From Niebla homalea (lineage: Eukaryota > Ascomycota > Lecanoromycetes > Lecanorales > Ramalinaceae): a stretch of DNA of 64,000 bases. A model generated the notes under the pieces. It was not told the origin of the DNA. It did no database searches and saw nothing but the letters and a program-made list of their open reading frames with translations. Made by a program: the position numbers and the translations under genes. Shown here one piece after another: positions 2,033 to 60,009 of the stretch. Each line of letters opens with the position of its first letter. The stretch's first letter is position 1. The DNA is taken from NCBI GenBank assembly GCA_019925105.1, contig JAHGAU010000001.1:1302001-1366000 (forward strand), written 5' to 3'.

Positions 2033-5000
2033 ATGTCCGGTCAACCTCAGGGTCATTACGATGAGGGCTACGGCCAACATCAAGGAACGGACTCATATTA
2101 CCAAGATGATCATGCTCAAGGATACTATGATCAGTATGCCGATTATGGACACAATAATGGCCAGCAAGATTACGCCCACGGCCAGCAAGGGAATGGTGGA
2201 TATTATGATGAAGCGTGAGTAGCAGATCGAGCAAGCATCTCAACCCCGGTGCTGACATGGCATAGCGGCTACTACAACGCTGATGCCAACAACCCATACC
2301 AGCACGATGGAGGCTACTATGACGGTCATCAACAACAAGGCTATCAGGATGAATACTACAATGACCAGTACTATGATCAAGGTACTCCTGCTGCAGGTCA
2401 GCAAGGCTACAACCAGGCTGCAAAGCCAAGACGGCGAGGCCACGATTCAGAAGAGGACTCCGAGACTTTTAGTGACTTCACTATGAGGTCTGACATGGCA
2501 CGTGCCGCCGAAATGGACTACTACGGTCGCGGCGATGAACGCTTCAACAGCTACAACGATGGCCAGGGTCGTGGCTACCGTCCTCCATCTTCTCAGATAT
2601 CTTATGGTGGCAACCGATCGTCTGGTGCATCCACGCCAATCTATGGTATGGGCGACTACCAAAATGCATTGCCTGCCGGCCAAAGATCCCGTGAGCCTTA
2701 TCCAGCCTGGACAAACGAAGCACAGATACCCGTGTCCAAGGAAGAGATCGAGGACATCTTCATCGATTTGACCGGCAAATTCGGCTTCCAACGCGATAGT
2801 ATGCGGAATCAATATGACCATCTCATGACGTTGCTGGATTCGCGAGCGTCCCGCATGACACCGAACCAAGCCTTGCTGTCTCTCCACGCCGACTACATTG
2901 GAGGAGACAATGCCAATTATCGTCGGTGGTACTTCGCCGCCCACCTCGATCTCGATGATGCCGTTGGATTTGCAAACATGAAGCTAGGCAAGGCCAACCG
3001 GCGCACACGCAAAGCCCGTAAGGCCGCAAAGAAGAAGGCCCAACAGGATCCGCAAAACGAAGATCAAACCCTCGAAAGCCTCGAAGGCGACAATAGCTTG
3101 GAAGCTGCCGAATACCGTTGGAAGACGCGCATGAACCGAATCTCCCCGCACGATCGTATCCGCCAATTGGCCCTGTTCCTGCTCTGCTGGGGCGAAGCTA
3201 ATCAAGTCCGTTTCATGCCTGAGTGCCTTTGCTTCATCTACAAATGTGCCATGGACTACATGGCCTCTCCTGAATGCCAAAACCGGGTCGAGCCTGCCGA
3301 TGAATTCACCTACCTCAACAACATCATTACACCCTTGTATAAATACTGCCGAGATCAAGGCTACGAGATTCAGGACGGTAAATTCGTCCGGCGAGAGCGC
3401 GATCACAGTGGAGTCATTGGATACGACGATTGCAACCAGCTGTTCTGGTATCCAGAGGGCATCGAGCGTATCGTGATGGAGGACAAATCTCGTCTTGTCG
3501 ATGTACCTCCTGCAGAACGGTACAACAAGCTGAGCCAGGTAGTTTGGAACAAAGTCTTTTTCAAAACGTACAAGGAGACGAGGTCTTGGTTCCATTTGTT
3601 GGTCAATTTCAACCGAATCTGGGTCATTCACTTGACAATGTTCTGGTTCTACACGTCATTCAATTCGCCAACATTCTACACTAAACATTATCAGCAACAG
3701 CTTGGAACGAGACCAAAACCCGCGGCGCAATGGTCTGCGGTCGGTCTTGGTGGAACACTGGCTTCTCTAATAATGATCATTGCTTCCCTGGTCGAATGGG
3801 CCTATGTTCCGCGTAGATGGGCCGGCGCACAGCACCTGACGAAGCGGCTAATGTTCCTCGTCCTTGTCTTTGTCATCAACATTGCACCGAGCGTGTACAT
3901 CTTTGGCGTCAATCAGGATGGGCCTATTGCGAAAGCTCTTGGGATCGTGCAATTCTTCATTGCTCTCTTCACTTTCTTCTTCTTCTCCATCATGCCACTC
4001 GGGGGCCTATTCGGAAGCTACATGAAGAAGAACTCTCGGCAATACGTGGCTAGCCAGACGTTCACAGCCAGCTTCTCCCGTCTCACTGGGAACGACATGT
4101 GGATGTCCTATGGTCTCTGGGTTCTCGTATTCGCAGCCAAGTTCGTCGAATCCTACTACTTCCTCACCCTCTCATTCCGTGATCCCATTCGATTTCTGTC
4201 GACCATGAAAATTACCAGATGCGCTGGAGACAAAATTATCGGGAATGTGCTCTGCAAGCAGCAACCAAGAATCCTCCTCGGCTTGATGTTCGTTACCGAC
4301 ATCTGTCTTTTCTTCTTGGACTCGTACCTCTGGTACATCATCTGGAATTGTGTTTTCTCCGTGGCTCGCTCCTTCTACCTCGGGGTTTCTATCTGGACAC
4401 CATGGCGAAATATCTTCTCGCGCCTCCCAAAACGTGTCTATTCGAAGATTCTGGCTACCACGGACATGGAGATTAAGTACAAGCCCAAGGTTCTCATCTC
4501 TCAGATTTGGAACGCCATTGTCATCTCGATGTATCGTGAACATCTTCTCGCGATTGACCACGTGCAGAAGCTCCTCTACCACCAGGTTCCCTCGGAACAG
4601 GAAGGCAAGCGGACATTGCGTGCACCAACATTCTTCGTCTCGCAAGAAGATCACTCGTTCAAAACTGAATTCTTCCCTGCGCAAAGCGAGGCAGAACGTC
4701 GCATATCATTCTTTGCGCAATCATTGTCAACTCCGATTCCTGAGCCCTTGCCGGTCGACAATATGCCTACATTCACCGTCCTGATCCCTCACTACAGTGA
4801 GAAGATCTTGCTCTCACTGCGGGAGATCATTCGGGAAGATGAGCCATATTCGAGAGTTACGCTGCTCGAATATCTAAAACAATTGCATCCTCATGAGTGG
4901 GATTGTTTCGTCAAAGACACCAAAATCTTGGCTGACGAGACCTCGCAATTCAATGGTGACTATGAGAAGACCGAGAAAGACACAGTGAAGAGTAAGATCG

Positions 5001-7902
5001 ATGATCTGCCGTTCTACTGTATTGGCTTCAAATCTGCTGCTCCGGAGTACACTTTGCGCACTCGAATCTGGGCTTCGCTTCGCTCCCAGACGCTCTACAG
5101 GACCATCTCAGGCTTCATGAATTACAGTCGTGCGATCAAGCTTCTCTACCGAGTTGAGAATCCCGAGGTTGTTCAGATGTTCGGTGGCAATTCAGACAAG
5201 TTAGAGCGAGAACTCGAACGCATGGCCCGTCGGAAATTCAAAATCATTGTCTCTATGCAGCGATACGCAAAATTCAACAAGGAGGAGCGTGAGAACACTG
5301 AGTTCCTTCTTCGTGCCTACCCCGATCTGCAAATCGCCTATCTGGATGAAGAGCCGCCCGTCAACGAAGGAGACGAGCCACGTCTGTACTCCAGCTTGAT
5401 CGACGGCCATTCAGAGCTCATGGATAACGGCATGCGTCGTCCCAAATTCCGCATTCAGCTTTCTGGCAATCCCATTCTAGGAGACGGCAAATCCGACAAT
5501 CAAAATCACTCCATCATCTTTTACCGAGGCGAGTACATCCAGCTGATCGATGCAAATCAAGACAACTACCTGGAAGAATGCCTGAAAATCCGCAGTGTGC
5601 TTGCCGAGTTCGAGGAAATGACTACTGACAATGTATCACCCTACACGCCTGGTCTCCCCAAGAGCACGACCGCCCCCGTGGCCATCTTGGGTGCGCGTGA
5701 ATACATCTTTTCAGAGAACATAGGCATCCTCGGTGATGTTGCTGCCGGCAAGGAGCAGACTTTTGGAACCTTGTTTGCACGTACACTCGCTCAAATCGGG
5801 GGGAAACTCCATTACGGACATCCCGATTTCCTGAACGGGATCTTCATGACGACCAGAGGTGGCGTTTCCAAAGCACAGAAAGGCCTGCATCTCAATGAGG
5901 ATATCTACGCCGGAATGAACGCTCTACTCCGCGGTGGACGCATCAAGCACTGCGAATACTACCAGTGCGGTAAAGGTCGTGACCTTGGCTTCGGCTCTAT
6001 CCTCAACTTTACTACGAAGATCGGCACTGGTATGGGCGAACAAATGCTGTCTCGTGAATACTATTATCTCGGCACTCAGCTACCGTTGGACCGCTTCCTC
6101 TCGTTCTATTACGCCCACCCGGGTTTCCACATCAACAATTTGTTCATTGTGTTTTCGGTACAGATGTTCATGATCTGTCTGATCAACATCGGTGCTCTTC
6201 GCCATGAGACGATCATTTGCAGATACAATAAGAACAAGCCTCCCACTGATCCCATCTTCCCCACCGGTTGTGCCAATGTGGTTCCGATCCTGGATTGGGT
6301 GTGGCGCTGTGTTGTCTCCATCTTTATCGTGTTCTTCATCTCCTTCATACCCTTGGTGGTACAGGAGTTGACAGAGAGAGGATTCTGGAGAGCAGCTACA
6401 CGGTTGGCCAAACAATTTGCCTCTCTCTCACCATTGTTCGAGGTCTTTGTTTGCCAAATCTACGCCAATTCGCTGACCCAAGATCTTTCTTACGGGGGCG
6501 CCCGTTATATTGGCACCGGGCGTGGCTTTGCAACAGCCCGGATTCCGTTTGGTGTGCTTTATTCAAGATTTGCCGGGCCATCAATCTACCTGGGTTCTCG
6601 CATGCTGATGATGCTGCTCTTCGCAACTCTCACCATCTGGGGAGTGGAGCTTCTCTACTTCTGGGTCTCTCTGCTGGCTTACTGCGTCTCGCCATTCCTA
6701 TTCAATCCTCACCAATTCTCATGGAACGATTTCTTCATCGATTACCGAGACTTCCTTCGCTGGCTCTCCCGTGGCAACTCGAGATCTCATGCATCCTCTT
6801 GGATTGCCTTCTGCCGTCTTTCAAGGACACGAATTACTGGTTACAAGCGCAAGGTCCTGGGCGAGCCTTCCTCAAAACTCTCAGGAGACGTGCCGCGAGC
6901 CCACTTCACCAATATCTTTGTTGGGGAAGTGGTGGGCCCTCTGCTCTTTGTCGCTGTTACCTTGATCCCATACCTCTTCATTAATGCACAAACAGGGGTC
7001 AGGAAGCACAACGACCCCACAAACTCTCTGATTCGACTGGCAGCGGTTGCATTCGCACCAATCGCAATCAATGCAGGGGTTTTGGCTGGGCTATTCGGTA
7101 TGGCATGCTGTATGGGCCCCCTCCTTAGCATGTGCTGCAAGAAATTTGGGTCTGTGCTCGCTGCCATTGCACACGGTGTTGCCGTTGTCATGCTCCTGGC
7201 CTTCTTTGAGGTCATGTTCTTCCTTGAAGGCTGGGTTTTCGCCAAGGCTTTGCTGGGAATGATTGCTGTCGTTGCCCTGCAGCGCTTCATCTACAAGCTG
7301 ATTATCGCCCTTGCCCTGACGCGTGAATTCAAGACGGACTCAGCAAACATTGCTTGGTGGACGGGCAAATGGTACGCAATGGGCTGGCACTCGCTCTCCC
7401 AACCCGGGAGAGAATTTTTGTGCAAAATCACCGAGTTGGGGATGTTTGCCGCCGACTTCATTCTCGGACACTTCATCTTGTTCTTCATGCTTCCCGTCAT
7501 CGCTATCCCCTACGTTGACAAATTCCATTCGGTCATGCTATTCTGGCTTCGCCCCAGGTGAGTCGCCCGATCCATCATGTTGCTCCTCCTGTTGCTAACA
7601 CCTCTCACAGTCGACAAATTCGCCCTCCCATCTATTCTTTGAAGCAATCGAAACTTCGCAAACGGCGCGTCATCCGTTTCGCCATGCTTTACTTCACAAT
7701 GTTCATCATTTTCCTCCTGATGATCGTTGGACCGATTGTGGCAAGCAAGTTCATGACCAGTCTTCCCAGCATCCCTATGAACCTCTTGCAGCCAACCGGG
7801 CAGCAGAATAATGACACTAGCAGTATGACGACGGGCTCCGCGCTCGACGGCTTGGGCGCCAAAACTGGCGGTGGGGGTGCGGCGGCGACGTCATCGTCAT
7901 GA
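2033..7902 (+). CDS. FKS1: 1,3-beta-D-glucan synthase catalytic subunit
   Basis: This plasma-membrane enzyme makes cell-wall beta-1,3-glucan from UDP-glucose, normally with a Rho1 regulator. It is the target of echinocandins. Three exons are inferred: 2033-2214, 2266-7557 and 7611-7902, giving 1921 aa, the usual family length. The N-terminus (about residues 1-90) is Tyr/Gln/Gly/Asp-rich and disordered. It is followed by the FKS1 domain-1 region ([16 protein letters not shown]), a first membrane block, the large cytosolic glucan-synthase domain ([21 protein letters not shown] split as seen) and a second membrane block. Hot spot 1 reads FLTLSFRDP (F693 onward) and looks wild type. The hot spot 2 region reads DWVWRC (D1404 onward), with Trp where yeasts have Arg. 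The last exon encodes a basic stretch, one final membrane helix and a Ser/Gly tail. Both introns have clear gtgagt donors, and the second has a ctaac branch site. Confidence 0.97.
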
Positions 7903-14282: not shown

Positions 14283-17200
14283 TCAACGCGGTCTTTTCAA
14301 AGGATGTGCCTCAGTGTTTCTGTCATCGTCGTGTCAGCTTTGGTAGCTTGCGAAGAACGAATTGCCGATTCAACTCACAATACATAATCATCCAGGCTAA
14401 TGTGAGACGGATCGCTGTAAAGCAAGTAGAAGTATTTGAGCGTCTCCGCGAGCCAAAATGACTCCATTTCATCAAGAACCGTTGACTTGTTACCATTGGT
14501 AACATCACTGATGGCGGAAGCACCGTACGTTGTGTTCGTGTGCTTCTCTATCGCCGTGAACATCTCCCACCCCTTTTCGCGCCAATACTCATCGCCTGTG
14601 ACACGGTAAAGGATGAAGACGGACTCGATAGCTTCGGGCCTAGAGGAATGTCAATATTGGATGGCCGTGACATTGGACTGGAGACTAACCTCAGGAGATA
14701 TCTTCCTCCGCTGATCTTGCTCATACCGATCGGGAGCCTTTCCTTATGGATCTTTGCAGCAATAAATTCTTCTCGAGTAGGTATGGCCGCAGCAGAAGAG
14801 TGAAGACTACCACCAATAACGCTGTCTTGTACTGCAGGCTGTCCCTTCGTAGGTGTTGGCACCGAATAGCCGGGTTTTTCGCCATCACCTTTCGACAGCC
14901 CGGCCGTTAAGCCATCTTCCAGTGCTGAATCATCCGTTGTTGCCCGACTGGCACCAGGCACCATCTTGCCTCCGACAGTCTTCTCTGCATCCATCTCGAC
15001 CACCGAGCTTCCCCTTACTTGGACCTGATCTTTTGCTGAGGTTCGTGGCGTGCCATCCTCATTTGCGTACTCCTCCGTGATACCTCCAGCTTTAGGGGAG
15101 GCGATGGTCTCCTTATTATTAAGGGGCTTCTCAGTCTGACTGTCATCGATGCGACCCAATTGACGTCGTCCGAGTCTGGGATTGAGTGGCTCTGATGCTT
15201 GGTCTTTGGCAACGAGCTTGGCCTTGGGGTACTCCACTGGTTCAGCATCCTCTCCGGTATTTCCAGAGTACTGCGATATGCTTAAGTCTGATTCGTCCTG
15301 CGTACTTGACGAGGTGGGTTTTGCGTCTTGCGATCGAGCAGTGCCAAACTGCGCCATGGCTGCACGACCCGCTACTGCTTCGGTATCAGCTTTCAAGGCC
15401 TTCTCTTTGGACGTCCCTGAGTCCACAAAAGCGGCTCCTTCCCCAGTAGGTTGATCCTTAGCTGCTGTTTTGATAGAATTAGGCTTTGGAGACGCGTCAG
15501 CTTTGGCTTTTGAAGAGTCCCAAAGCTTGGATTCATCAGATTCGAAAGAGGCTTCTTTAGTTCCTACATGATTCTCTGATGGCACTGCCTCAGCATTACC
15601 ATCAGTCACCCCATTCAGCTGTGACTGCTGGCTCAACCGTCTGATCTCTCTTTGGGCGCCGTAAGGATCGAGCGTTTCTTGCCACTTCGTCTCATTCCAC
15701 GGGCAGACGTCTTGGTCACTGCAGGCGATTGAAAGATATGACTCAGGCATGATACCAGTACCAGTGGATTCATAGGCCCACACGCATCCATCCGTCAACT
15801 TCTTAGCTATATCTAAATCCTCCTTTCGGTCAAAAATTCTTGCGCCTACAGCAAACATACCACCAATGAAACAGGTAAGATGAGTACCCTCAGGTTTGAA
15901 AAGTTGTCTCCCCCCAGCCTGTTCCTCGTCATGTACTTTCAGGAGACCAGCTTGCAAAATCGAACGTTTCTCATCCGGAATCATAGGCCGATAAATGAGA
16001 TGTTTCTTGGTAGCATCAGCAGCCATTTCGTACATAGATCGATACTTCGGCTCAAGGCCCCCCAATAGCATGTACTCTTTTGGCAGGTACTCGTATGTCG
16101 AGTCGGCTTGGCCACCCAAGCCGAATTCTTCGGTACTACTAAATGGTGGAGAGGCCAATCCTTGAGGGTCACAGTCTGGCTTGACCTTGGCATCGCTTTC
16201 AACTGGATTTGAACCAGATTTGGAAGCGGATCCTGCAGAAGTTTCACGACTCTTCTTCCGACTATCCTCAATATCACCGTCAGAAGAATACTGGGTCATG
16301 GAATCCCTCCTAGTTCGCTGCCTGGGCTCCCGTAAGTCAAGCAACGGGCCATCATCATCTAAAGTCACGCTCTTGCTACTACTGTTCTCACCATTATCCG
16401 AGGCTGCATCGTTGATCTTTGCGACGGTCTCTGCGCCGACGAGATCGGAGGATGCCGCAGCAATACGATTTGCTGCGGCCTTCTCCGGTATTGAGAGAGG
16501 CTTACTGACATCAGACTTGCCCTGTGTTTGGTCACTGGACTCGGAAGTGCTGCTGTCAGGTTTTCTGCATCCTGATGCGTCAACTTTCATTGGCCACAGA
16601 CCAGGCAACTTGGTGTGACCCTGCCAGATCTCGAACTCGTTAGTAATTCGAGCAATGGCATCGTAGTATCTGGGCTCTTTGGTTATTTGAGCAAGCCTGG
16701 TGAATTCAACAGACAAAGATCCAAGCTCAGCTAGCACCACTCGAGTTTTGGCTCTGTGAGGCTGAGAAGCAAATGTGGGTTTCCAGAGATAGAACGTTAT
16801 AGGCATCCGATTGGGGGTGTCGAAGGAACCCATAAGGATGTCGGCTAGCTCCACTGCCTTGTCAAGAAGAATTTGATGCGTGCTGCCGCTGATATCGAAG
16901 GCGGCGACGAGTCCCCCAAGATAACGGATGACGGTCTCAAAAAGCGGTATGTCGTTCCGCATACTCGTGGTAAAATCGATATCCTTCACGGCGTCCACGG
17001 CTTCCTCGAATTCATCCTTTAGGTCCATCATCCAGAGTGTATCGAGCGTGTCCACGAGGGTTGCCCCCCATCCGCAAAAGGGGTTCCGATACTTGCCAGT
17101 CTTTGGAGACAACTCGTCCTGCATCCAGGCCTTTTGTCTGTATCCGGTCCAGGAAAATAAAAAGGTGTCTTTGATTTTATCGATCTTGCTCTGTTCAACA

Positions 17201-17892
17201 AGTCCACTTTTGGGAGCAATAAATTCATGCTGGATCTTGGGAATAGTCTTGGGCGTGCCCGTAGGAAGCCGAATGAGACTCTTGGTGGGGACGGGGAAAT
17301 GTTCTGGTAGGCTTGACCAGTGGATCTTGGTAATGGTGTCGTCCGCGTTGACTTCAAGACGTCCTTGTGAATTGGTGCCGTCCAGCACGGGCAATGCGGG
17401 CTCTGCGGGATCGGTCGTTGTTTTGTTGACCGCAACGGGCTTGTTCAAGTACGGGTGCTCCGAGGGGCCAGAGGTCGCAACTTTCGATGTAGTCGTTGGT
17501 TTTGATGGCGCGCGGTTGCCACCATTAATTGGCAGCGGAAAAGAGTCGCTTGCGCGCACCGTTTCTTTTTCTGATGTTGGCTGCGGTGCAAGGGACGCTT
17601 GGGATTCGATGAGATCAAGTTGTGGACCCTTTCCTTCAGCGATTAAAGCTTCAGCATGGCTGGGTTGAGAGGGAGCTAATGAGGGCGCAGCGATAGGCTC
17701 ATTAGCTTCTGGATTGGAGTCTTCCTGAGGTTTCGCTGACGAGCTATCGGCCTTTTGTCTTAATTGCTTCCATCCCTCAACACCTGCGGCACCAGCGTGT
17801 TGTAGATCTCCCAACGTCGAGAAATGGTAGAGAAGACCCAAAGTGATGAGAGCAAACACTAGATATACTCTATAACGGCGAAGTCGAAACAT
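14283..17892 (-). CDS. Class I alpha-1,2-mannosidase (GH47), Mnl2-like, with long internal inserts
   Basis: GH47 enzymes trim alpha-1,2-mannose from N-glycans in the ER/Golgi. Some also mark glycoproteins for ER-associated degradation. Three exons fit in phase: 14690-17892, 14379-14639 and 14283-14319, giving 1166 aa. Residues 7-25 ([19 protein letters not shown]) form a type II membrane anchor. The catalytic domain begins near residue 235 ([44 protein letters not shown]). It is interrupted by two Ser/Asp/Lys-rich low-complexity inserts, at about 435-590 and 765-1020. It resumes with [17 protein letters not shown] and [10 protein letters not shown], and ends with [36 protein letters not shown] and the family-ending NTEAHP. 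At more than 1100 aa it is roughly twice a standard GH47 enzyme. The split domain resembles yeast Mnl2. I cannot tell whether it is an active mannosidase, and no EDEM role can be claimed from sequence alone. Confidence 0.92.
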
Positions 17893-29163: not shown

Positions 29164-30158
29164 CACTTGGCGAAACAAGACTGGCCCTCAACGTGGTGTA
29201 TTTCAAGAAGGCTTGGAAGGTCTTCAATAATAGTCCACAGGCTTTGGAGAGTAAGGAGCGGAATTCCTGGGCCTGCGATTCCGCGCTTAGCGCTGGATCT
29301 ATCCCACCAAGCACACCCAATTAATATAGATAGAAATGCAAAGAAATTCCATTAAAGCTAGCTACCCAGGAAGCTGTCAAAGACAGGCAAAAATGTGTGA
29401 TACTCAAGCGAGTAGAAAGTTTCCAAAGATTGATAATTGGAGATTTGACGCAACCCACGGACTCTTCTGGTAAAAGGCAAGGAGAGTATTCCACGTTAGG
29501 ATGTCGTCCTCCGCTCCCAAGTTTTACTATTACACAATATATTCCATGCAATTTAATGCAATGACTGGCGGCCAAGCGGTAAAAAGCCCAATTACACCAA
29601 CAGCCCTGTCAAAGACTAGAGTCATATGTGTTCCAAATTTCATAGAGATTTGTATGCATTAATCTAAGTAATGCCTGATTATGTAGTTGATGTCGTCTCA
29701 TCATCAGGGAATGAGCGCTATGCAAAGGAGCAAACGTTTACAAGACGAAACTATCAGATCCGCTAAATCAAGGGGGATTCCATGTCTAGCCCATTGAATA
29801 TTCAACAAGACGATCAAGTAGTCGATTGCTCACCCAGCAAAGAGTAACGACCAAAGATGTCCTGCCCGTTTTCCAGCCTCATGATGCTTTGTCGAAGAAT
29901 ATTTACTGTAGAATCGAACAATGTAAATACATCGTGAGGTATCCTCACGTCAATAGCTACTGGCATTCACATTGTGCTGAGCCCTGTGCAAACTCAACGA
30001 GCCCGCCTGGCCGTTGAGAATAATGCATAGTGGAACAGAGACAATATCCAACGCTTGTTCCATGCAGGTCAAATATCGAGCGCGGGAATAGGACGCGAAC
30101 GCGAGTCGAGATTGCGGAGGATTCCACTTGATGCAGAAATGCCTTGCATTTACTATCA
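29164..30158. other. Gap between convergent RSA3 and AUR1
   Basis: This is nearly 1 kb of moderately AT-rich sequence between convergent 3' ends. No coding frame, tRNA or repeat could be supported. Confidence 0.5.
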
Positions 30159-39003: not shown

Positions 39004-41400
39004 ATGGGTATCTCAGGTTTGCATGTGTGAAGACGTGGATGGACCATTGTTAATCGTGATCTAGGCTTGCTGCCGCTACTCAAATCGATACACAAGCCTT
39101 GCAATATTAGGAAATATGCCGGACAGGTCATTGGGGTGGATGCTTACGGCTGGCTCCATAGAGGCGCGGTGGCATGTGCCATCGATCTTGCTTTACACAA
39201 GCCTACCAAAAAGTTGACCCTCAGACCTTCCTCGTAAGGTAATAGACGGCTAATTGTATCAAGATACGTCGATTTCTCCATGAATCGAGTCCGCATGCTG
39301 ATCCACTTTGGTGTCGTCCCCTATCTTGTCTTCGATGGCGACTTCTTGCCTGGTAAGGCAGGCACAGAAGCTGAACGCGCGACCCGGCGCGAAGAGAGCC
39401 GAAAGCGGGGGTTGGAGTACCATCAGATGAACAAGCCTTCTCAGGCCCATCTCGAGCTACAAAAAGCAGTCGATATTACTCCGGTCATGGCGAGGGAACT
39501 CATAGAAGAATTGAAGAGCATTGGCGTCCAATATGTCGTCGCCCCGTATGAAGCAGACGCTGAACTAGTCTACTTGGAGAAGAAAGGCATCATTGGGGGC
39601 ATCCTCTCCGAGGATTCAGATCTGTTGGTTTTTGGTGCAAAGCGCCTGTTGACCAAGCTTGACCAGTACGGAGATTGTGTAGAGATCAACCGGGCAGATT
39701 TCAGTGCCTGTCGCGAAATCAGTCTGATTGGCTGGACCGACGATGAGTTCAGGCGAATGGCAATACTCAGTGGATGTGACTACCTTGGCAACATACCTGG
39801 TATGGGACTGAAGAACGCCTATCGTCTGGTGCGCAAATACAAGACGCCAGAGAAGATCATTCGCATGTTGCTCTTTGATGCAAAGTATCATGTTCCCCCA
39901 CGTTACCTTGAGGACTTTCAAAAAGCAGAATTGACTTTCCGTTTCCAGCGTGTCTATTGTCCGCAACAAAACCAGGTTATTACCCTCGGCGACATCAGCC
40001 TTGCTGGCAGTCAGAGCGATCTTGCATGCATTGGCGCAGAGGTGGAGCATTTGGTAGCTGTCGCTGTAGCAAGAGGTGATCTTGATCCTGTGACAAAAAG
40101 GCCCATCATTCTCCCGCTATCCTCAAAATCGTCGCCCAGAACCCCACTGACCGCATGTCAGTCGGACTGGAAGGAGACCAGATTGTCCCAGGTGAAGGGA
40201 AATAAAACCATTGAGACCTTCCTGAAGGCTCAAAGGACTCCTTTGGCAGAGCTAGATCCAAACAAGTTCACACCTTCCCCAACTCAAGAGCAACTCCTCC
40301 GGCGGAGTAGCGGAGCATCATGGCAGTCGAATGATCCTCCCACAACCACGTCCACCCCGGCTACGAGCATGCCCCTAGTCCAAGCCCAGCCACCAAGAAA
40401 TAGAGCACGGCCGAGCAGCACGATGTTAACGAACATGACGACCATTACGCCAGCAAAACGGAGGAAAGTTTTGCAAGATTCCCCAGATGGAAAGCAACAC
40501 GTCCTGGGGGAAGCTGGTCCATCAGCTGAGGTACAAAGCCCATTTTTCCGGTCAATACATACAACCCCAGGAAGGAAGCCGGGAAAGTCGAAAGGGACCA
40601 AAATACAGGTTTGGTCGGATGATCTCGAGTGCACTACAAGGACTGCTCAGGCCAAGAAGCCCACGCCTTCAGCCCTGGAAATCAAAGACCAATCGAGATG
40701 TTCTGACCGTCATCCAGTGAAGGCTCTTTTGGCAGAACCTGCTGGAAGGGAGCGCGCTTTGGACAGTGATGAGTCTCGCAAAAACGAAAATGCGACGGAA
40801 TCGCAGGCGCCCACTTCGTCAACAAGACCCCTTTCGTCATATGGTTGTGGCAACGCCGACGACGGCGATCACAATATCTCACTGCCAGACACCTTTCAGA
40901 GACTGGATCAATGTGTCAAAAGGGAGCTTGCCACCGTTACCAAAATTAGCTCGTTCCAGTATCAACCTCAAGCTACGCAACCTCCTTTCAGCCAAGAGAG
41001 TTGCAAAACCCAGCAAGCGACTCTTCGAGCATCCCAGTCATCTAGTCAGCCACGTATGAAACCCCCGACCGGCCGAAAGCAAGGCACGACACCGTTGCAA
41101 CGACTTGGGTTGGGAGCAATACGTCGTTCTCAGTCGCTTGATGAGTCGGCAATCCTTAATCACTCACCTAATGTACGACGTCCTGCCGACGTTCCACCAG
41201 CAGTCCCTGCTCAGAAGGAATTACTCGCACAATTAGGCCAGGATCGCATTATTAAAGCTTCAAGGGACAAGACCTGCTTACGAGGGAGTGAAGATGCATT
41301 AGGCCCAGAGTCAGAGGAGGATCCTTGCCTTCCAGTTTCAGGAGAGCATACGGGCCAGGGATCACTTCTCGACTTAAGTCAATTCACTTTTAGCGGATGA
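39004..41400 (+). CDS. EXO1: 5'-3' exonuclease 1 (Rad2/XPG family)
   Basis: Exo1 resects DNA in mismatch repair and double-strand-break repair. Three exons fit in phase: 39004-39016, 39065-39212 and 39264-41400, giving 765 aa. The first exon is only 13 nt and encodes MGISG, the invariant Rad2-family N-terminus. Together the exons read MGISGLLPLLKSIHKP. Acidic active-site motifs are present: IGVDAYGWLHRGA, VFDGDFLPGK, APYEADAELVYLEK, ILSEDSDLLVFGAK and MAILSGCDYLGNIPGMG. The helix-hairpin-helix region follows (GLKNAYRLVRKYKTPEKII). After about residue 340 the protein is a long disordered Ser/Thr/Pro-rich tail, as in other Exo1 proteins, ending LDLSQFTFSG. Length and order are standard. Confidence 0.96.
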
Positions 41401-41712
41401 TGGTAGTAAGATCATCCGGTTATTCGTTTGTGTCTTGGACACGATGCCTGTAAGCATCGACTGATCTTGGTATTTGAAGCTAAGTCGCGATGCATAGCCA
41501 AGGATGCATGCAAAGGAGTACGGTAGACATGGCGGCTACTTGTGTATGATGATAGAGCGATGAGATCAATGCAAGCAAGTGTAGTACATGAATGGTGACT
41601 TCAGCATGCTCTACCCTTCACGCGAAGGATCGAATGTGGTCAGGAGATGCCACACACATCTGGAGAGCTCAATGTTTTGTTATATATTATCGAATAGGGA
41701 ATGCATGGCCAC
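41401..41712. other. EXO1 3' region and tRNA upstream region
   Basis: No coding gene is seen. The only notable element is the TATA-like run just upstream of the tRNA, listed separately. Confidence 0.5.
41681..41690 (+). promoter_or_regulatory. TATA-like box upstream of tRNA-Ser
   Basis: The sequence tatatattat lies 23-32 bp upstream of the predicted tRNA 5' end. This spacing suits TFIIIB positioning, as at fission-yeast tRNA genes, which need an upstream TATA. It matters here because the internal A box of this tRNA is split. Confidence 0.6.
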
Positions 41713-41727
41713 GACGCTTTGGCCGAG

Positions 41728-41778
41728 GTACGCCAGATCCTCAACTTTCAACGAGATTAATTCTAACATTTGTCGCAG
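41728..41778 (+). other. 51-nt spliceosomal-type insertion in the tRNA D loop
   Basis: The insertion splits TGGCCGAG|TGGTTAAGGC. It begins gtacgc, ends tgtcgcag, and has an attctaacat branch-site-like motif 11 nt before the end. Length, ends and branch motif match the protein-gene introns here (UBP2 intron 1 ends ctaacatatatacag). The last bases of the insertion plus the next exon also form tgtcgcagTGG. That is one mismatch from the A-box consensus TRGCNNAGTGG, so the insertion may partly rebuild the promoter it disrupts. Confidence 0.8.
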
Positions 41779-41800
41779 TGGTTAAGGCGATAGACTTGAA

Positions 41801-41831
41801 TTTCTTCCACATGTGGATGAGCTTGTTCGAT
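41801..41831 (+). other. Canonical tRNA intron (31 nt) after base 37
   Basis: It lies one base 3' of the anticodon, the standard eukaryotic position. Bases ttcga near its 3' end can pair with ttgaa of the anticodon loop (one G-U), the usual anticodon-intron helix recognised by the tRNA splicing endonuclease. It also contains the palindrome tccacatgtgga. Confidence 0.85.
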
Positions 41832-41896
41832 ATCTATTTCATTCGTGAGCGCAGGTTCGAACCCTGCAGGCGTCGGAGTCCACCACCTTGGGATAC

Positions 41897-41902
41897 TTTT
41901 TT
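41897..41902 (+). terminator. RNA polymerase III terminator (T6)
   Basis: A run of six T on the coding strand lies 22 nt after the tRNA discriminator base, the normal pol III stop signal. Confidence 0.8.
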
Positions 41903-42149: not shown

Positions 42150-43833
42150 TCAGAACCCAAAGCCCCCGGGAAATTGAAATCCACCACCACCTCCCTGCTG
42201 GAACTTGAACTGCTGACCACCGCCACCTCCTCCTCCGGGACCTTGCCGGAAGAAGAACTGTTGTCCACCAGCACCTTGCCCGAACGGGCTCCCATGGAAC
42301 GGGCCCCCTTGCTGCTGCTCTGGATTGTTGGGATCATCACCTCGGTCAAATCGGGCTCTCAGCTCAGGGTCACTCAGTACTTCATACGCCTCGTTGATCT
42401 CGGCCATCTTTTTCTGAGCCTGTTCACGCTCAATGCCCTGCGTCACGGCTTTATCCGGATGATGTTGCTTTGTCATCCGACGATAAGCTCGCTTGATCGC
42501 GAGCTCGTCTGCATCAGTCGCAACATTGAGGACTTTGTAATAGTCCTTCGTCTTGGAGCGTTTGAGCAAGGTGTGAGCCTTTTGCAGGAGGGGCTGAATC
42601 CTCTGAGAGGCAGAGGGATGGTTCTCCTTGGCAGTGTTTAGGCTTGAGATGGCTGCTTCAAAGTCCTCAGTCTCGAGCAAGCTATGAGCTTGATGTAGCA
42701 GGCCTGGTAATGATTGAGGACTCTTATTTAGAGACTCGACGCAGAATGGGGTTGCCTTTTTCCTGTTGTTCATCTTGACATCTTGTCAGCCTGAGCTCCC
42801 GCAAGCGGGCTTGCATGACGCTTACCTCCAGATACAAGTCGCAAGCTATTTCCGCTAGGCTGTCGAGTAGTCCATTTGGGGATTGCGGGTGGATGTAGCC
42901 AGCATTCTTCGCTTCCTGTACTTCCTCCTTTACTTCCTCTATCAGACCTGGGTCCTCTCCAGTCTTGACTAGCAACTTCACAGCACTGTTGAACTGGCCT
43001 TTACCCTTCAACTGTTCGACTCGCAGAAGCGCCTTGTTAAGCTGCTTCTCCCGACGCAGCAGCTTGCTGCAAGCCTTCGAGTCTGGGTCCGATCGTAGAC
43101 ACTTCTTCATCTGCTCGACCCCCTTCTCTCGATCGTTGACGGCATAGAACATGGTGGAGGCGATATTCATGTGCGGCTCTATCGATGATGGGGCCAATTG
43201 GATGCTGTGCTGCAAATCACTCATGGCTTCCAGGACTTCGCCTCGTTCCAGGCGACATCGTGCCCTGCGCTGTCTCAACTCGAGTGACGTGCCTGCCACC
43301 AAGATAGCTGTGCCTGCGTGGCCAACGCAGTTCTCCCAGTCGGACGCCTTCTCCGCATCAGCGGCCAATACCGCAGCCCCAGAGGCCTCCTCAAGTTGAG
43401 CGTACTCGGCGGTGTCGATCTTCTTCGCCCTGTGATAGTCTTCTTTCGCGCCTGACCAGTCTGCATTCCTGCTCTTTATCTTGGCGCGCTGGAGCAGGGC
43501 CCCTTCGAAGTCGGGTCTTATTTGCAAGGCCTTGTCGAAGTCCTGTGTAGCTTTTCCATTGTTTCCCAAAGACAGGTAGGTTGCGCCGCGCTGAAAGATG
43601 GTGAGGTAATTCCGGGGATCTCGTGAAATGGCTATATCATAATAAGTCAGGGCATCATTGGCGTTGCCAGCAGCCAGATTCGCTTTGGCGGAGGAGACAA
43701 GGGAGGCTATCGGGGTATCTGAAGGGATCTCGGAAGGCGAAAGTGACAGCACAATGGGCGAGTAAAGCACCGAGGCTCCAAGAGCTAGCCACGGTAATCT
43801 ACGTATCATGATGATAATCTTGACAAAGTACAC
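42150..43833 (-). CDS. ER-lumenal TPR/J-domain co-chaperone (DNAJC3/p58IPK-like)
   Basis: This family helps BiP/Kar2 handle unfolded proteins in the ER lumen. Two exons, 42826-43833 and 42150-42773, fit in phase. The acceptor giving LYLE-MNNRKKATPFC matches the family. Starting at the Met at 43809 (MIRRLPWLALGASVLYSPIV, a clean signal peptide) gives 535 aa. The Met at 43833 adds 8 residues. TPR repeats fill residues 25 to about 395 (ANLAAGNANDALTYYDIAIS, AKIKSRNADWSGAKEDYHRA). The J domain is at about 403-473 with the catalytic HPD in TKQHHPDKA. A Gly/Phe/Gln-rich tail ends PGGFGF. There is no HDEL/KDEL signal, and many fungal members also lack one. Confidence 0.93.
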
Positions 43834-55875: not shown

Positions 55876-58800
55876 ATGGCGGTTCGTCTGAATGGAGGTA
55901 CATGACAAGCGTCTTGATCATGCCCCTGGCTTAGTGCTAACATATATACAGGGAAAACGGCGCCACGACTGATCCAAGACCTAAATGCATACAATCCCCA
56001 TCTGCGGAACGGCGATCCAAAAACCGCGTTGACTCATACTTATTTCAACGACGCAGAAGAAGAGGATGAGCATCCTCCCCTGCCCTTCGCTAGATGCCGA
56101 CATCAATGGGCAATCAAGAGCAATCAAAGTATCCTGCCAGGGGATGATACGTACGTACCTAGCCTTCGAGATGACTGGATATTCGCGTGCTGCTGCACGA
56201 AATGTCGCAGTCACTTATATTTTCGGGTCGACTATGGGCCGCAAGATCAACATTTCAAACCCTGCCCTCGAGTAGACAGACCCCTTCATCATTTCATGTC
56301 CCAGCCTGATGGTCCTGGAGTGGCTTCCGGCAAAGTCAACGGGGAAGGTCCTGGCGTAGAGCCTTCAATTTCTACATGCAACTTCGTATGCTCTAACGAG
56401 TCGTGCAACACTTCGATCAAGATATCTTTCAGGCCTCCCCGATTGAAGGATGATTGGATATCACTGTTGACTGACAAAGTCATTATCAAGGCGCGAGTCG
56501 AGAGGGCAATTAGTAGTGACCCGGAAAGATTTCAAGGACATGCGCCGCCTCTCCCAGGCTCTGTGCTTGAGACCCTCTTCCGCCTGGTGAGGATTGCATT
56601 GACGGCGGATGACGGTGATCCCACCAAGAAACCGTATGCTCGGAATGGGAAGAGCTGGCTTCTCAACTTTGGTGAAGAATCTGCGAGCCTGATGGAATAC
56701 CTGGGCTTCACAAGTGATGTAAAGGTGGTCCTTGAGCAACGTCAGTATGGATCTAATACTTTCCAGGGCGGCCCGTGGCAGTGGCCAAAAATTGACCGGA
56801 ATGCTCAGATCCCATTTCAGGACCCGCTCAGGATCCTGCTGGACGACGTCAGAGAGGAAATCTATACGCTCATGATGGCTAGACCAGACGATGAGAGGCG
56901 GAGCGCCAAATTCGAGCACATCCCAACTATGGCCTCCATGGGGTTGAAAGCTACGCTGGGTTGTGCCGAGTACAAGGTAAATTCCAAATCACGGACGGTC
57001 GATCTTACCATCGACGAACATCCTGCCTATGCTGGTGTAGGTGCCGTTGCTGATTTCCATGACGATCTCGTCTATTTCGCATATGTCCGTCAGATAAGTA
57101 CTGATAAGGACAACATACCCTACTATCTACAATGCCTTCAAACAATTGCTGAGGGTCGAGAAAGCGAAGAGCTCGGCACTAAAGCCGCTGTCGAGGAAAG
57201 TGAAGGCCGTTTCAGCTTGCGAGACGTGAAACAGGCTTATCGAAATCTGGGTCAAAACGTACACGAGAAGAGTTTGGCTGATGACACCATCATTGGCAGC
57301 TTCCAAGCCCGGCTGTCCGATGCTCCCAAGCAAGAAACCCTGTTGAGGCGGGATTTAGGCATCATCGGAAGACATCGAAGGAGTTACAAGATCCAGAACA
57401 TGGCAGCGCAAGCAGTCAGCAACTACGAACAGGCTCTAGGATTTTTGGATACTGAGGAGAGCACAAGTGATGAATTCATTACAACAATGTTTGCACTCAA
57501 GGTGGAGGGCAATCTAAGCAACGAAGCAACAGCCCGCCAGGCAATCGCCATCATTGCCAATCACAGGAAGAGTAGTTCGCTCAAGCAGTGGCTCGAGACA
57601 GGTCATCTTAATCCAACAGAGATGGATGCCAGCCAGGCTTATGCCAGGCTTGATATCCCCGACCGTACTATGGATGACGAAATGATTCTGGCCATCTACA
57701 AGGTCCAAGCAGATGATGCTCCCTCTCAAGCGGACGATCTGAGAAAGGCGCTCACCGCGATCGCGAAAGCAAGGGCTTCGAAGATCCTATTAGAGTATGC
57801 CGGGGTCGGTATCGATGGTGCAAAATATCCTCTTGATCAGTGGCCTGTCGCACTCGGCAACATTGGCAACACTTGTTATCTCAACAGCCTACTGCAATTC
57901 TATTTCTCGATACGGCCGTTTCGGGAGCTTGTGCTTGGGATTGAGAAGTTCAGAACACCCTTAGACCAGGAAAGCATCAGATTAAAACGGATTGGAGGTA
58001 GAATTGTGACCAAGAGAGAAGTCGAGCGCGCTCAGCGTACGGCTGACGAGTTGAGGAAGTTATTCCAGACCCTCATCGAAACCTCAAGACGCTCCATCAG
58101 ACCGGACACAGAGGTCGCCAGACTTACTCTCTTGACTCCAAAGGCTGAAATCGCCCGAAGGCAATCGATCCGACAATCAGCGAATGCCGATCAGCGACCA
58201 AGCTTTGCTCCAGGCCTTGGAACCATCAATGGTGTTGCTGTACAGGGGCCATCTTGGCCAGCTCCACCACAAGGTTTCTCTGATGAGGCAGCCATTGTTG
58301 ATGGCCCACCGGCAGAAATGGACACACGGCCTTCAGAAAACCGCGAATCAGCCAACAGCTCCAGTGAAACACTTGTCGATGCCCCAGTGACAAGCAGCAT
58401 AGATGGTGTGGATGTGGAGGAGGGTTTCAAAGATCAGAAGGAACTGATTCTGCAAACCGAGCAAAACCAATCATCAGAGGAAGGAGGTCTTGCGACAGTA
58501 GCAGCTCCTCATCCTAATCTAAACCCGCTTTCTGAGACCTCATCATCTCCTTTGAATGCTAAGGCGCTTGCTCCGTTTTCTGGACTAGATGAAGCACCTC
58601 AAGTTGCCCAGACCGTCGATGGTCCTACTTCCACTCAAGGAATGGAACCCCCTTCCAGCCTGCCGCCACCGGTGCCTCCTAGACCGAAACCCTCTCTCGA
58701 ACCGGACGAAGCTGTGAAAGAAGCAGAGTTTGCCGCTCAACAGCAGGATGTGAACGAAATCGCCTATAACATTCTCAACCAAATGCAGTGTGCTATAAAA

Positions 58801-60009
58801 GCCGAGGACCGTGATGAGGAAGGTGAGCAGCTCGATCAAATCAAGAGCCTTTTCTATGGAAAGCAAAAGACCTTCATTACGAGTCAGTCAGGAGAGGTGA
58901 GAATGAAGGAAGAATTCATGTCCGACATCAAAGTAAATGTTTTGGATGGCCCTCAAGATATCTACTCAGCACTTGACGGTGCTTTCGACGTTGAGGATGT
59001 TGTTGTAGCCGGTGGCGTGGAGCCAAAGTACTACACAATCAGTCGACTACCTCCTGTCTTGCAGATCCACATCCAACGAGGCCAATATGACCCTCAAACA
59101 AGGAAGGAGTTCAAATCTGACAATCATCTGGAACTCAGAGAGATAATCTACATGGACAGGTATATGGATTCTTCAGACCCGGAAATACTCAGGAGACGCC
59201 AAGAGTCATGGCAGTGGAAACGGCGCTTGAATACGTTGGAGTTTCGCCGGGATCAATTAATGGCTTCCGATGTAGGTAACCCGAAACCTGATCGTTGTTC
59301 CTCTATTAAAACCAACAGTTGCAGATGGACATGTCCACCGTACTTGAAAGCGCCCACAGGTACCTACAGCAGCTCGCCAAGATTCAAGGAGAACACGCTA
59401 TACATGTGCCATCCGCGCTCCTCGAGACTCTTGCAAAGGCCGCTGCAGAGGCAAAGGTGGAGCTCCGAGGTGAGAGACAGCTAGTGTGTAGAGCGAAGGC
59501 TTCTGCTAACTGGCAAAGGCCTTGAATGCCAGATCAAAGATTTGAGAGCCCAAATAGTTTCCCAGTTCAGCGACCTCCGAGGATTTCCCTATAGACTATC
59601 AGCTGTCTTCATTCATCGCGGCTCGACCAATGCTGGTCACTACTGGATCTATATCTACGACTGCAAAGCCCAGATCTGGAGGAATTACAATGACGAGAAA
59701 GTCACATTGGTCTCTGATGTCCGCGAGATCTTTGACCCACCCAAAGGCCAACGTCCTCCAACACCTTATTTCCTAGTCTACGTGAGGGACGACAAGAAGG
59801 AAGCTCTCGTGGATCCAATTTGTCGAGAGGTAAAGGACGCGCCCCCCGAAGAGTCGGAGGACATCACGATGGAGCAATATGAGCCAATCGAGCTTGAGGA
59901 CCAGATTACCAGTACCTACGCTTCCTTGCAGCCGCCTACCGTGAGTTCTGGGCCGTCGGGAGTTGTGGATTGGGATGACGGCCAGCAAAAATACTTTACC
60001 GGACAGTAG
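55876..60009 (+). CDS. UBP2: Ubiquitin carboxyl-terminal hydrolase Ubp2
   Basis: Ubp2 is a ubiquitin-specific protease (USP). In yeast it trims K63-linked chains and counteracts Rsp5. Four exons fit in phase: 55876-55897, 55952-59271, 59325-59469 and 59519-60009, giving 1325 aa. The start MAVRLNGGKTAPRLIQDLNA relies on a 22-nt first exon. A Cys-rich N-terminal region follows (WIFACCCTKCRSHLYFRVDY), then helical repeats resembling the UBA-like repeats of Ubp2. The catalytic domain begins with GNIGNTCYLNSLLQFYF (Cys649) and ends with the His box FIHRGSTNAGHYWIYIYD (His1203) and WRNYNDEKVTLV. A Ser/Pro-rich insert of about 200 aa splits the domain (about 730-920), typical of Ubp2. A coiled segment (QLAKIQGEHAIHVPSALLET) precedes the His box. 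Confidence 0.93.

Follow-up and report, generated by a model that had tools for sequence, protein, structure and literature searches.

In the textbook view, introns of tRNA genes are removed by a protein endonuclease and a ligase, and spliceosomes act on Pol II transcripts. The tRNA-Ser(UGA) gene in the window (the whole 64,000-nucleotide stretch of Niebla homalea DNA analyzed here) sits uneasily with this rule: besides an ordinary anticodon intron it carries an insert in its D loop that looks like an mRNA intron. Is this a functional tRNA gene, and if so, which machinery would take out the insert? Judged on sequence, the insert is very probably a spliceosomal intron of the U2 type residing in a tRNA gene of the Pol III class, and at least nine further tRNA genes of this nuclear genome would share the trait.

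The preliminary description placed a tRNA-Ser(UGA) gene with a 51-nt D-loop insert at this locus, and direct reading agrees with it in both coordinates and description (Table 1). The GCCGAG of exon 1 is the 5' part of the D arm and of the A box, the anticodon TGA lies at 41797-41799 and the B box (41854-41864) falls inside exon 3. Within the D-loop intron a branch-type CTAAC is found at 41763-41767, its second A being 12 nt from the 3' end. The junction can be slid by 1-2 nt, and only the register given here has GT..AG ends. It had also been claimed that removal of the insert restores a tRNA-Ser, and this holds: ARAGORN then calls tRNA-Ser(tga) with seven out of seven acceptor pairs and a 31-nt anticodon intron. 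For the unspliced gene it returns a spurious Glu, in which the D arm is broken and the 'intron' measures 84 nt. Run on the window with the tool's settings, ARAGORN did not find the gene, and cmscan against Rfam missed it at gathering thresholds (window) and at E 5 (around the gene). By minimum energy the spliced initiator tRNA (iMet) folds into a cloverleaf, but the spliced Ser(UGA) does not, whether its anticodon intron is kept or removed.

Table 1. Features of the window and insert junctions of nine further split tRNA genes in the same genome. Positions refer to the window; slashes mark the insert boundaries.
Feature	Position	Strand	Description	Basis
mRNA-type motif just 5' of FKS1-like ORF	2215..2265	+	51 nt, GTGAGT, CTGAC 10 nt from end, TAG	
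FKS1-type glucan synthase ORF	2249-7561			Pfam
mRNA-type motif at FKS1-like ORF end	7558..7610	+	53 nt, GTGAGT, CTAAC 12 nt from end, CAG	
Glycosyl hydrolase 47 ORF	14548-17892			Pfam
U5 spliceosomal RNA gene	29401-29514	-	52.2 bits, full model length, apparently intron-free	
XPG-type nuclease ORF	39280-41400		presumably EXO1-like	Pfam
TATA-like box	41681..41688	+	tatatatt, -32 from exon 1	best TATAWAWA match
tRNA-Ser(UGA) gene	41713-41875	+	two interruptions (D-loop insert and anticodon intron)	read directly
Ser(UGA) exon 1	41713..41727	+	GACGCTTTGGCCGAG: 5' acceptor strand GACGCTT, T8 G9, GCCGAG	read directly; ARAGORN
mRNA-type D-loop intron	41728..41778	+	51 nt, 5' GTACGC, 3' CGCAG	read directly
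Ser(UGA) exon 2	41779..41800	+	remaining D arm (TGGTTAAGGC), anticodon stem, anticodon, up to position 37	read; ARAGORN
Anticodon-loop intron	41801..41831	+	31 nt, tRNA-endonuclease type position	ARAGORN on spliced sequence
Ser(UGA) exon 3	41832..41875	+	remaining anticodon arm, variable arm, T arm, 3' acceptor AGGCGTC, discriminator G	read; ARAGORN
T6 run	41897..41902	+	Pol III terminator candidate	read directly
TPR protein ORF	42724-43833			Pfam
Ubiquitin hydrolase ORF	56029-59484			Pfam
Ser(CGA)			GAC/gtgagt...cag/ACTT; acceptor 3/4	
Lys(UUU)			GCC/gtatgt...cag/CTGG; acceptor 3/4	
Gln(UUG)			GGT/gtacgt...tag/TGTG; acceptor 3/4	
Leu(AAG)			GGT/gtacgt...tag/GAGA; acceptor 3/4	
Arg(ACG)			GGT/gtacgt...cag/CCTG; acceptor 3/4	
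Initiator Met(CAU), iMet			AGCA/gtaaga...tag/ATA; after acceptor position 4	
Arg(CCU)			GGGTGG/gttagt...aag/T; after acceptor position 6	
Thr(CGU)			GCCTTCTTGGCACAGTGG/gtaagt...tag/TAATGC; D loop	
Cys(GCA)			GGGCGTGTAACTCAGCG/gtaagc...ccag/GTTAGAG; 52 nt; D loop	

The gene does not stand alone. At least ten nuclear tRNA genes, Ser(UGA) included, carry an insert of the same design in the 50.6-Mb genome (52 contigs); this number is a lower bound taken from a partial tRNA census, and the share among the loci examined is no genome-wide rate. A search with the Rfam tRNA model (RF00005; the best 63 of 2585 candidates scored) gave at least 46 matches. Contig C49 accounts for 15 of these and is taken as the mitochondrial genome judging by its tRNA cluster. 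Three weak nuclear matches span model positions 4-67, 6-65 and 8-63 only, and others have badly paired acceptors. The matches are partial because the missing 5' bases sit approximately 50 nt further upstream, past an intron-like stretch: the order is missing bases, GTNNG, an intron-like stretch ending in AG, and then the tRNA body. The tenth case, Cys(GCA), was picked by its tRNA-like 3' end alone; a second locus picked in the same manner is AT-rich and has a decayed look.

The acceptor stem is the site in seven of the ten cases (five at position 3/4, iMet at 4/5 and Arg(CCU) at 6/7) and the D loop in the other three. Given the positions that the A box takes in tRNA genes, the intron lies inside it in Ser(UGA) and Cys(GCA). 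Apparently an ordinary anticodon intron is also present in eight of the ten genes, six of them flagged by ARAGORN and two, Ser(CGA) and Cys(GCA), recognized by eye. Among the contiguous genes ARAGORN flags anticodon introns in 16 out of 24, up to 54 nt in length.

The anatomy of the inserts is uniform. All ten measure 47-55 nt, start with GTNNG and contain CTRA, the A of which is 9-13 nt away from the 3' end (in Ser(CGA) another CTRA occurs at 6); the last three bases are YAG in nine cases and AAG in Arg(CCU). U2-type spliceosomal signals (GT with NNG, AG, and CTRA near the 3' end) are hence found in every gene. For four of nine genes the junction can be slid by 1-2 nt, and the GT..AG register is the one given. 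Introner-type repeated introns were considered and rejected: at the sensitivity of the search used, the Ser(UGA) insert is not repeated elsewhere in the genome, and the highest similarity among the 36 pairs of nine introns is z = 2.7, which leaves common descent of the introns unsupported.

Could such inserts be non-canonical tRNA introns that are removed by the Sen endonuclease and a ligase, their likeness to mRNA introns being incidental? Non-canonical tRNA introns do exist at position 3/4 (some Thermoproteales) and in the D arm (algae and nucleomorphs), according to excerpts of PMC4090602 and PMC3978253. However, the GT..AG ends and the CTRA at 9-13 nt recur in all ten genes, and the Sen pathway needs neither. 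A strict bulge-helix-bulge is moreover found in none of nine inserts, their central helix having 0-3 of 4 pairs. We therefore regard removal by the Sen pathway as very unlikely. Bulge-helix-bulge introns were rejected as a class on the strict motif, with a 4-pair central helix in 0/9 inserts (the set without Cys(GCA)). Canonical Sen-type introns were rejected as well, since the site is not one nucleotide 3' of the anticodon but at acceptor 3/4, 4/5, 6/7 or in the D loop.

The preliminary description had further likened the Ser(UGA) insert to the mRNA introns of neighboring genes, which turns out to be modestly supported. In the window 13 strict motifs of 45-59 nt are present against 4.9 +/- 2.6 (maximum 12) in 60 Markov-1 shuffles, a modest excess of predicted introns under a definition drawn up after the tRNA introns had been seen. 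One of these is the Ser(UGA) insert itself and two share one 3' end, leaving 11 other places. The ORF for the FKS1-type glucan synthase, an enzyme whose presence points to a fungal genome, is adjoined by two of the 13. When mRNA introns were sought with a looser coding-frame scan, the real motif yielded 253 hits and the three controls 396, 492 and 368, so here the noise exceeds the signal.

Once the insert is removed in silico, ARAGORN recognizes a tRNA in ten out of ten genes, each with every acceptor pair formed. The spliced anticodon label is correct for nine of them; Leu(AAG) is labeled Ile(aat) because ARAGORN places its anticodon intron differently. When the genes are left unspliced, none gives the right tRNA with a fully paired acceptor: seven (the initiator included) give no tRNA, and the other three have a wrong identity (the spurious Glu of Ser(UGA)) or a broken acceptor (Leu(AAG) and Arg(ACG)). 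Tools for tRNA finding can thus miss such genes.

An even-handed test covered 36 distinct places among the nuclear sequences examined, each having a 5/5 T stem and matching the T-loop motif. Ala(UGC) falls outside this set, its T loop not fitting the motif, and the two Asp copies count as one. A contiguous call with a full acceptor was obtained for 24 places; these include two odd loci, L048 and L101, and also Ser(UGA), which enters by way of the spurious Glu. At nine places nothing but the deletion of a stretch built like an mRNA intron rescued the call, with only 18 such deletions existing to try; Thr(CGU) was rescued by three of the 18, one of them giving another identity. The remaining three fell in neither class and concern Gly(UCC) and two places that are not tRNA genes by eye. 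For the seven acceptor-stem genes, the number of shuffled upstream sequences that passed was 0, 4, 0, 3, 5, 1 and 0 per 60,000, under a null that keeps exon 1 as long as observed and is thereby slightly favorable. Among the contiguous tRNA-like loci the acceptor is paired 7/7 in 25 out of 26. The exception is Gly(UCC) (C8:283419) with 5/7: it has two T-T acceptor mismatches, and no such intron accounts for them.

It might also be argued that the interrupted genes are pseudogenes hit by insertions, while intact copies elsewhere serve translation. Decayed iMet-like sequences are indeed present in the genome (L040 and L106). Against this, the inserts have exact splice anatomy, and their removal brings back the tRNA call and the paired acceptors in all ten genes. 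When the genome was searched at the DNA level with nine spliced genes joined, each was found at one locus only. Three further matches turned up, namely Ser(GCU), Ser(AGA) and a decayed iMet fragment with a broken T stem. No second intact copy was thus found for the nine genes searched (the set without Cys(GCA)), the initiator tRNA among them, although diverged or unlisted copies could escape such a search. On these two grounds, intact pairing after removal and the absence of a second intact copy in the nine-gene search, the pseudogene explanation was rejected; we give it very little credence. The check for other intact Ser(UGA) copies that the preliminary description proposed likewise gave none by DNA searches of the organism's own genome.

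Functional genes with introns that have to be removed would have consequences for the cell. The split iMet gene (L024) shows the hallmarks of an initiator: the pair A1:U72, GGGCTCATAACCC as anticodon arm and GGATCGAAACC as loop. The initiator tRNA, which starts every protein, is essential. If no intact copies have escaped the search, the introns would have to be removed for the cell to survive. UCG codons, in addition, need Ser(CGA) or Ser(UGA), and both genes are interrupted. A further step is to regard the spliceosome as an obligatory enzyme of tRNA maturation, on which iMet and a large share of the single-copy isoacceptors depend. This we put forward tentatively, as a possibility that is somewhat less likely to be right than wrong. 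If true, splicing capacity would set the tRNA supply and translation initiation, and the coupling could slow growth under stress, similar to a proposal made for the spliceosomal introns of lichen rRNA.

As a separate observation, the Ser, Leu and Arg isoacceptors each occur once among the nuclear loci read, with identities assigned partly by eye against the ARAGORN labels. The decayed initiator-like sequences L040 (C11:1155453) and L106 (C2:1442160-1442310) both retain the GGGCTCATAACCC anticodon arm.

The upstream regions bear on the extent of the transcript. A TATA-like match with a score of at least 6 is found in 23 of the 26 contiguous loci, 19 at -16 to -48 and four at -56 to -87. For the nine split genes measured, the best TATA-like matches lie approximately -25 to -46 from exon 1, and these same matches lie -73 to -99 from the contiguous tRNA body. 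In seven of the nine every best match falls within the range of approximately -25 to -46; Lys(UUU) and Thr(CGU) have extra tied matches upstream. The spacing measured from exon 1 is therefore as in most contiguous tRNA genes, which would place the insert within the transcript: the promoter seems to be positioned for exon 1 plus intron. T runs of at least 4 after the 3' ends and B-box stretches are present in all nine split genes read for them (the set without Cys(GCA)). Pol II might instead produce RNAs that contain the tRNA parts and are spliced like any other noncoding product of this polymerase, which is the least probable explanation of all: Pol II transcripts are the usual substrates of the spliceosome and a TATA-like box could suit either polymerase, but the box is placed as in most contiguous tRNA genes and nine split genes have the T runs and B-box stretches mentioned. 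A spliceosomal-type intron in a functional nuclear tRNA gene, as the preliminary description suggested, is the best reading, given nine sister cases (with iMet among the ten), the TATA-like box upstream of exon 1 (nine genes measured), no bulge-helix-bulge (nine tested) and no second intact copy found (nine searched). On the other side of the balance are the minimum-energy fold of Ser(UGA), the introns inside the A box of two genes, the very short mature exon 1 of seven, the decayed look of the second locus picked by its 3' end and the acceptor mismatches of Gly(UCC).

Beyond the intron anatomy, the restored tRNA call with its acceptor pairing, the TATA placement, the T runs and the copy search, all of which are read from the DNA, we infer transcription by Pol III, removal of the insert by the spliceosome and an order of events based on the general order of tRNA processing. 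Pol III would start from the TATA-like box 5' of the short exon 1 and read through the leader, exon 1, the intron and the remaining tRNA down to the T run. Still in the nucleus, the spliceosome would then take out the intron of 47-55 nt. In seven genes no more than 3-6 nt of exon 1 belong to the mature tRNA, so splicing would have to draw on the 5' leader before it is processed. Folding of the acceptor stem or D arm would be possible only after the spliceosomal intron has been removed, and RNase P and tRNase Z would trim the ends after this step. Where a separate anticodon intron is present, it would be removed by the tRNA endonuclease and ligase (the Sen pathway).

Several known systems resemble parts of this arrangement. 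In Schizosaccharomyces pombe and other fungi the U6 snRNA carries an mRNA-type intron. Such a case is comparable in having a spliceosomal intron in a Pol III transcript, but the host is an snRNA gene and not a set of tRNAs. The two U6 matches of the present genome look intron-free, since each spans the full model within 100-101 nt. The canonical Sen introns (position 37/38) share the nuclear tRNA genes as hosts, whereas the introns described here have another position, fixed splice motifs and, as proposed, other machinery.

The rRNA genes of ascomycetes and lichens are also known to harbor spliceosomal introns (Bhattacharya et al. 2000 as cited; Cladonia grayi, PMC8527467), and yeast removed such an intron from rRNA, as excerpts of PMC8527467 indicate. 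These introns are alike in that a spliceosomal intron resides in a non-mRNA gene, which in their case is transcribed by Pol I according to the same excerpts. Here, in contrast, the hosts are tRNAs (probably Pol III transcripts), at least ten different genes are involved and seven of the introns sit 3-6 nt from the mature 5' end. In archaea, Cyanidioschyzon and nucleomorphs, non-canonical introns are attributed to the tRNA endonuclease and often have a bulge-helix-bulge (excerpts of PMC4090602 and PMC3978253). They resemble the present introns in occupying sites outside the anticodon, including 3/4 (some Thermoproteales) and the D arm, at least in those excerpts; the introns described here differ in having no bulge-helix-bulge (nine tested) and spliceosomal signals instead. 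Among the matches listed for the open-licence PubMed Central literature, as far as their text was available, no report of spliceosomal introns in tRNA genes was found. An ectopic spliceosomal intron is of a known kind; its use across much of a tRNA set is new within the reach of these searches.

Altogether the ten genes point to spliceosomal removal of introns from apparent Pol III precursors with a mature exon 1 of down to 3 nt. This makes it testable whether a spliceosome can handle a tRNA precursor that lacks the cap and tail of Pol II, and what holds back RNase P before splicing. It also raises the questions how introns enter noncoding genes and whether splicing can be a gate on translation.

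A few other loci are worth recording. The odd locus L101 (C3:1165936 region) is tRNA-like with perfect acceptor pairing and D and T arms; no anticodon arm was found in it, either unspliced or after any GT..AG removal of at least 30 nt. Another tRNA-like pair with an identical 3' end consists of L048 (C1:476362) and C24:838531, the C1 copy having a paired acceptor but lacking U33, with its anticodon region interrupted by a long insert. Finally, tRNA-like 3' ends with the tail CAGACTTTTT (for example CACGACCAGACTTTTTT) occur on at least contigs C6, C9, C26, C29, C31 and C32, and this CAGACTTTTT-tailed set is possibly a repeated tRNA-derived element.
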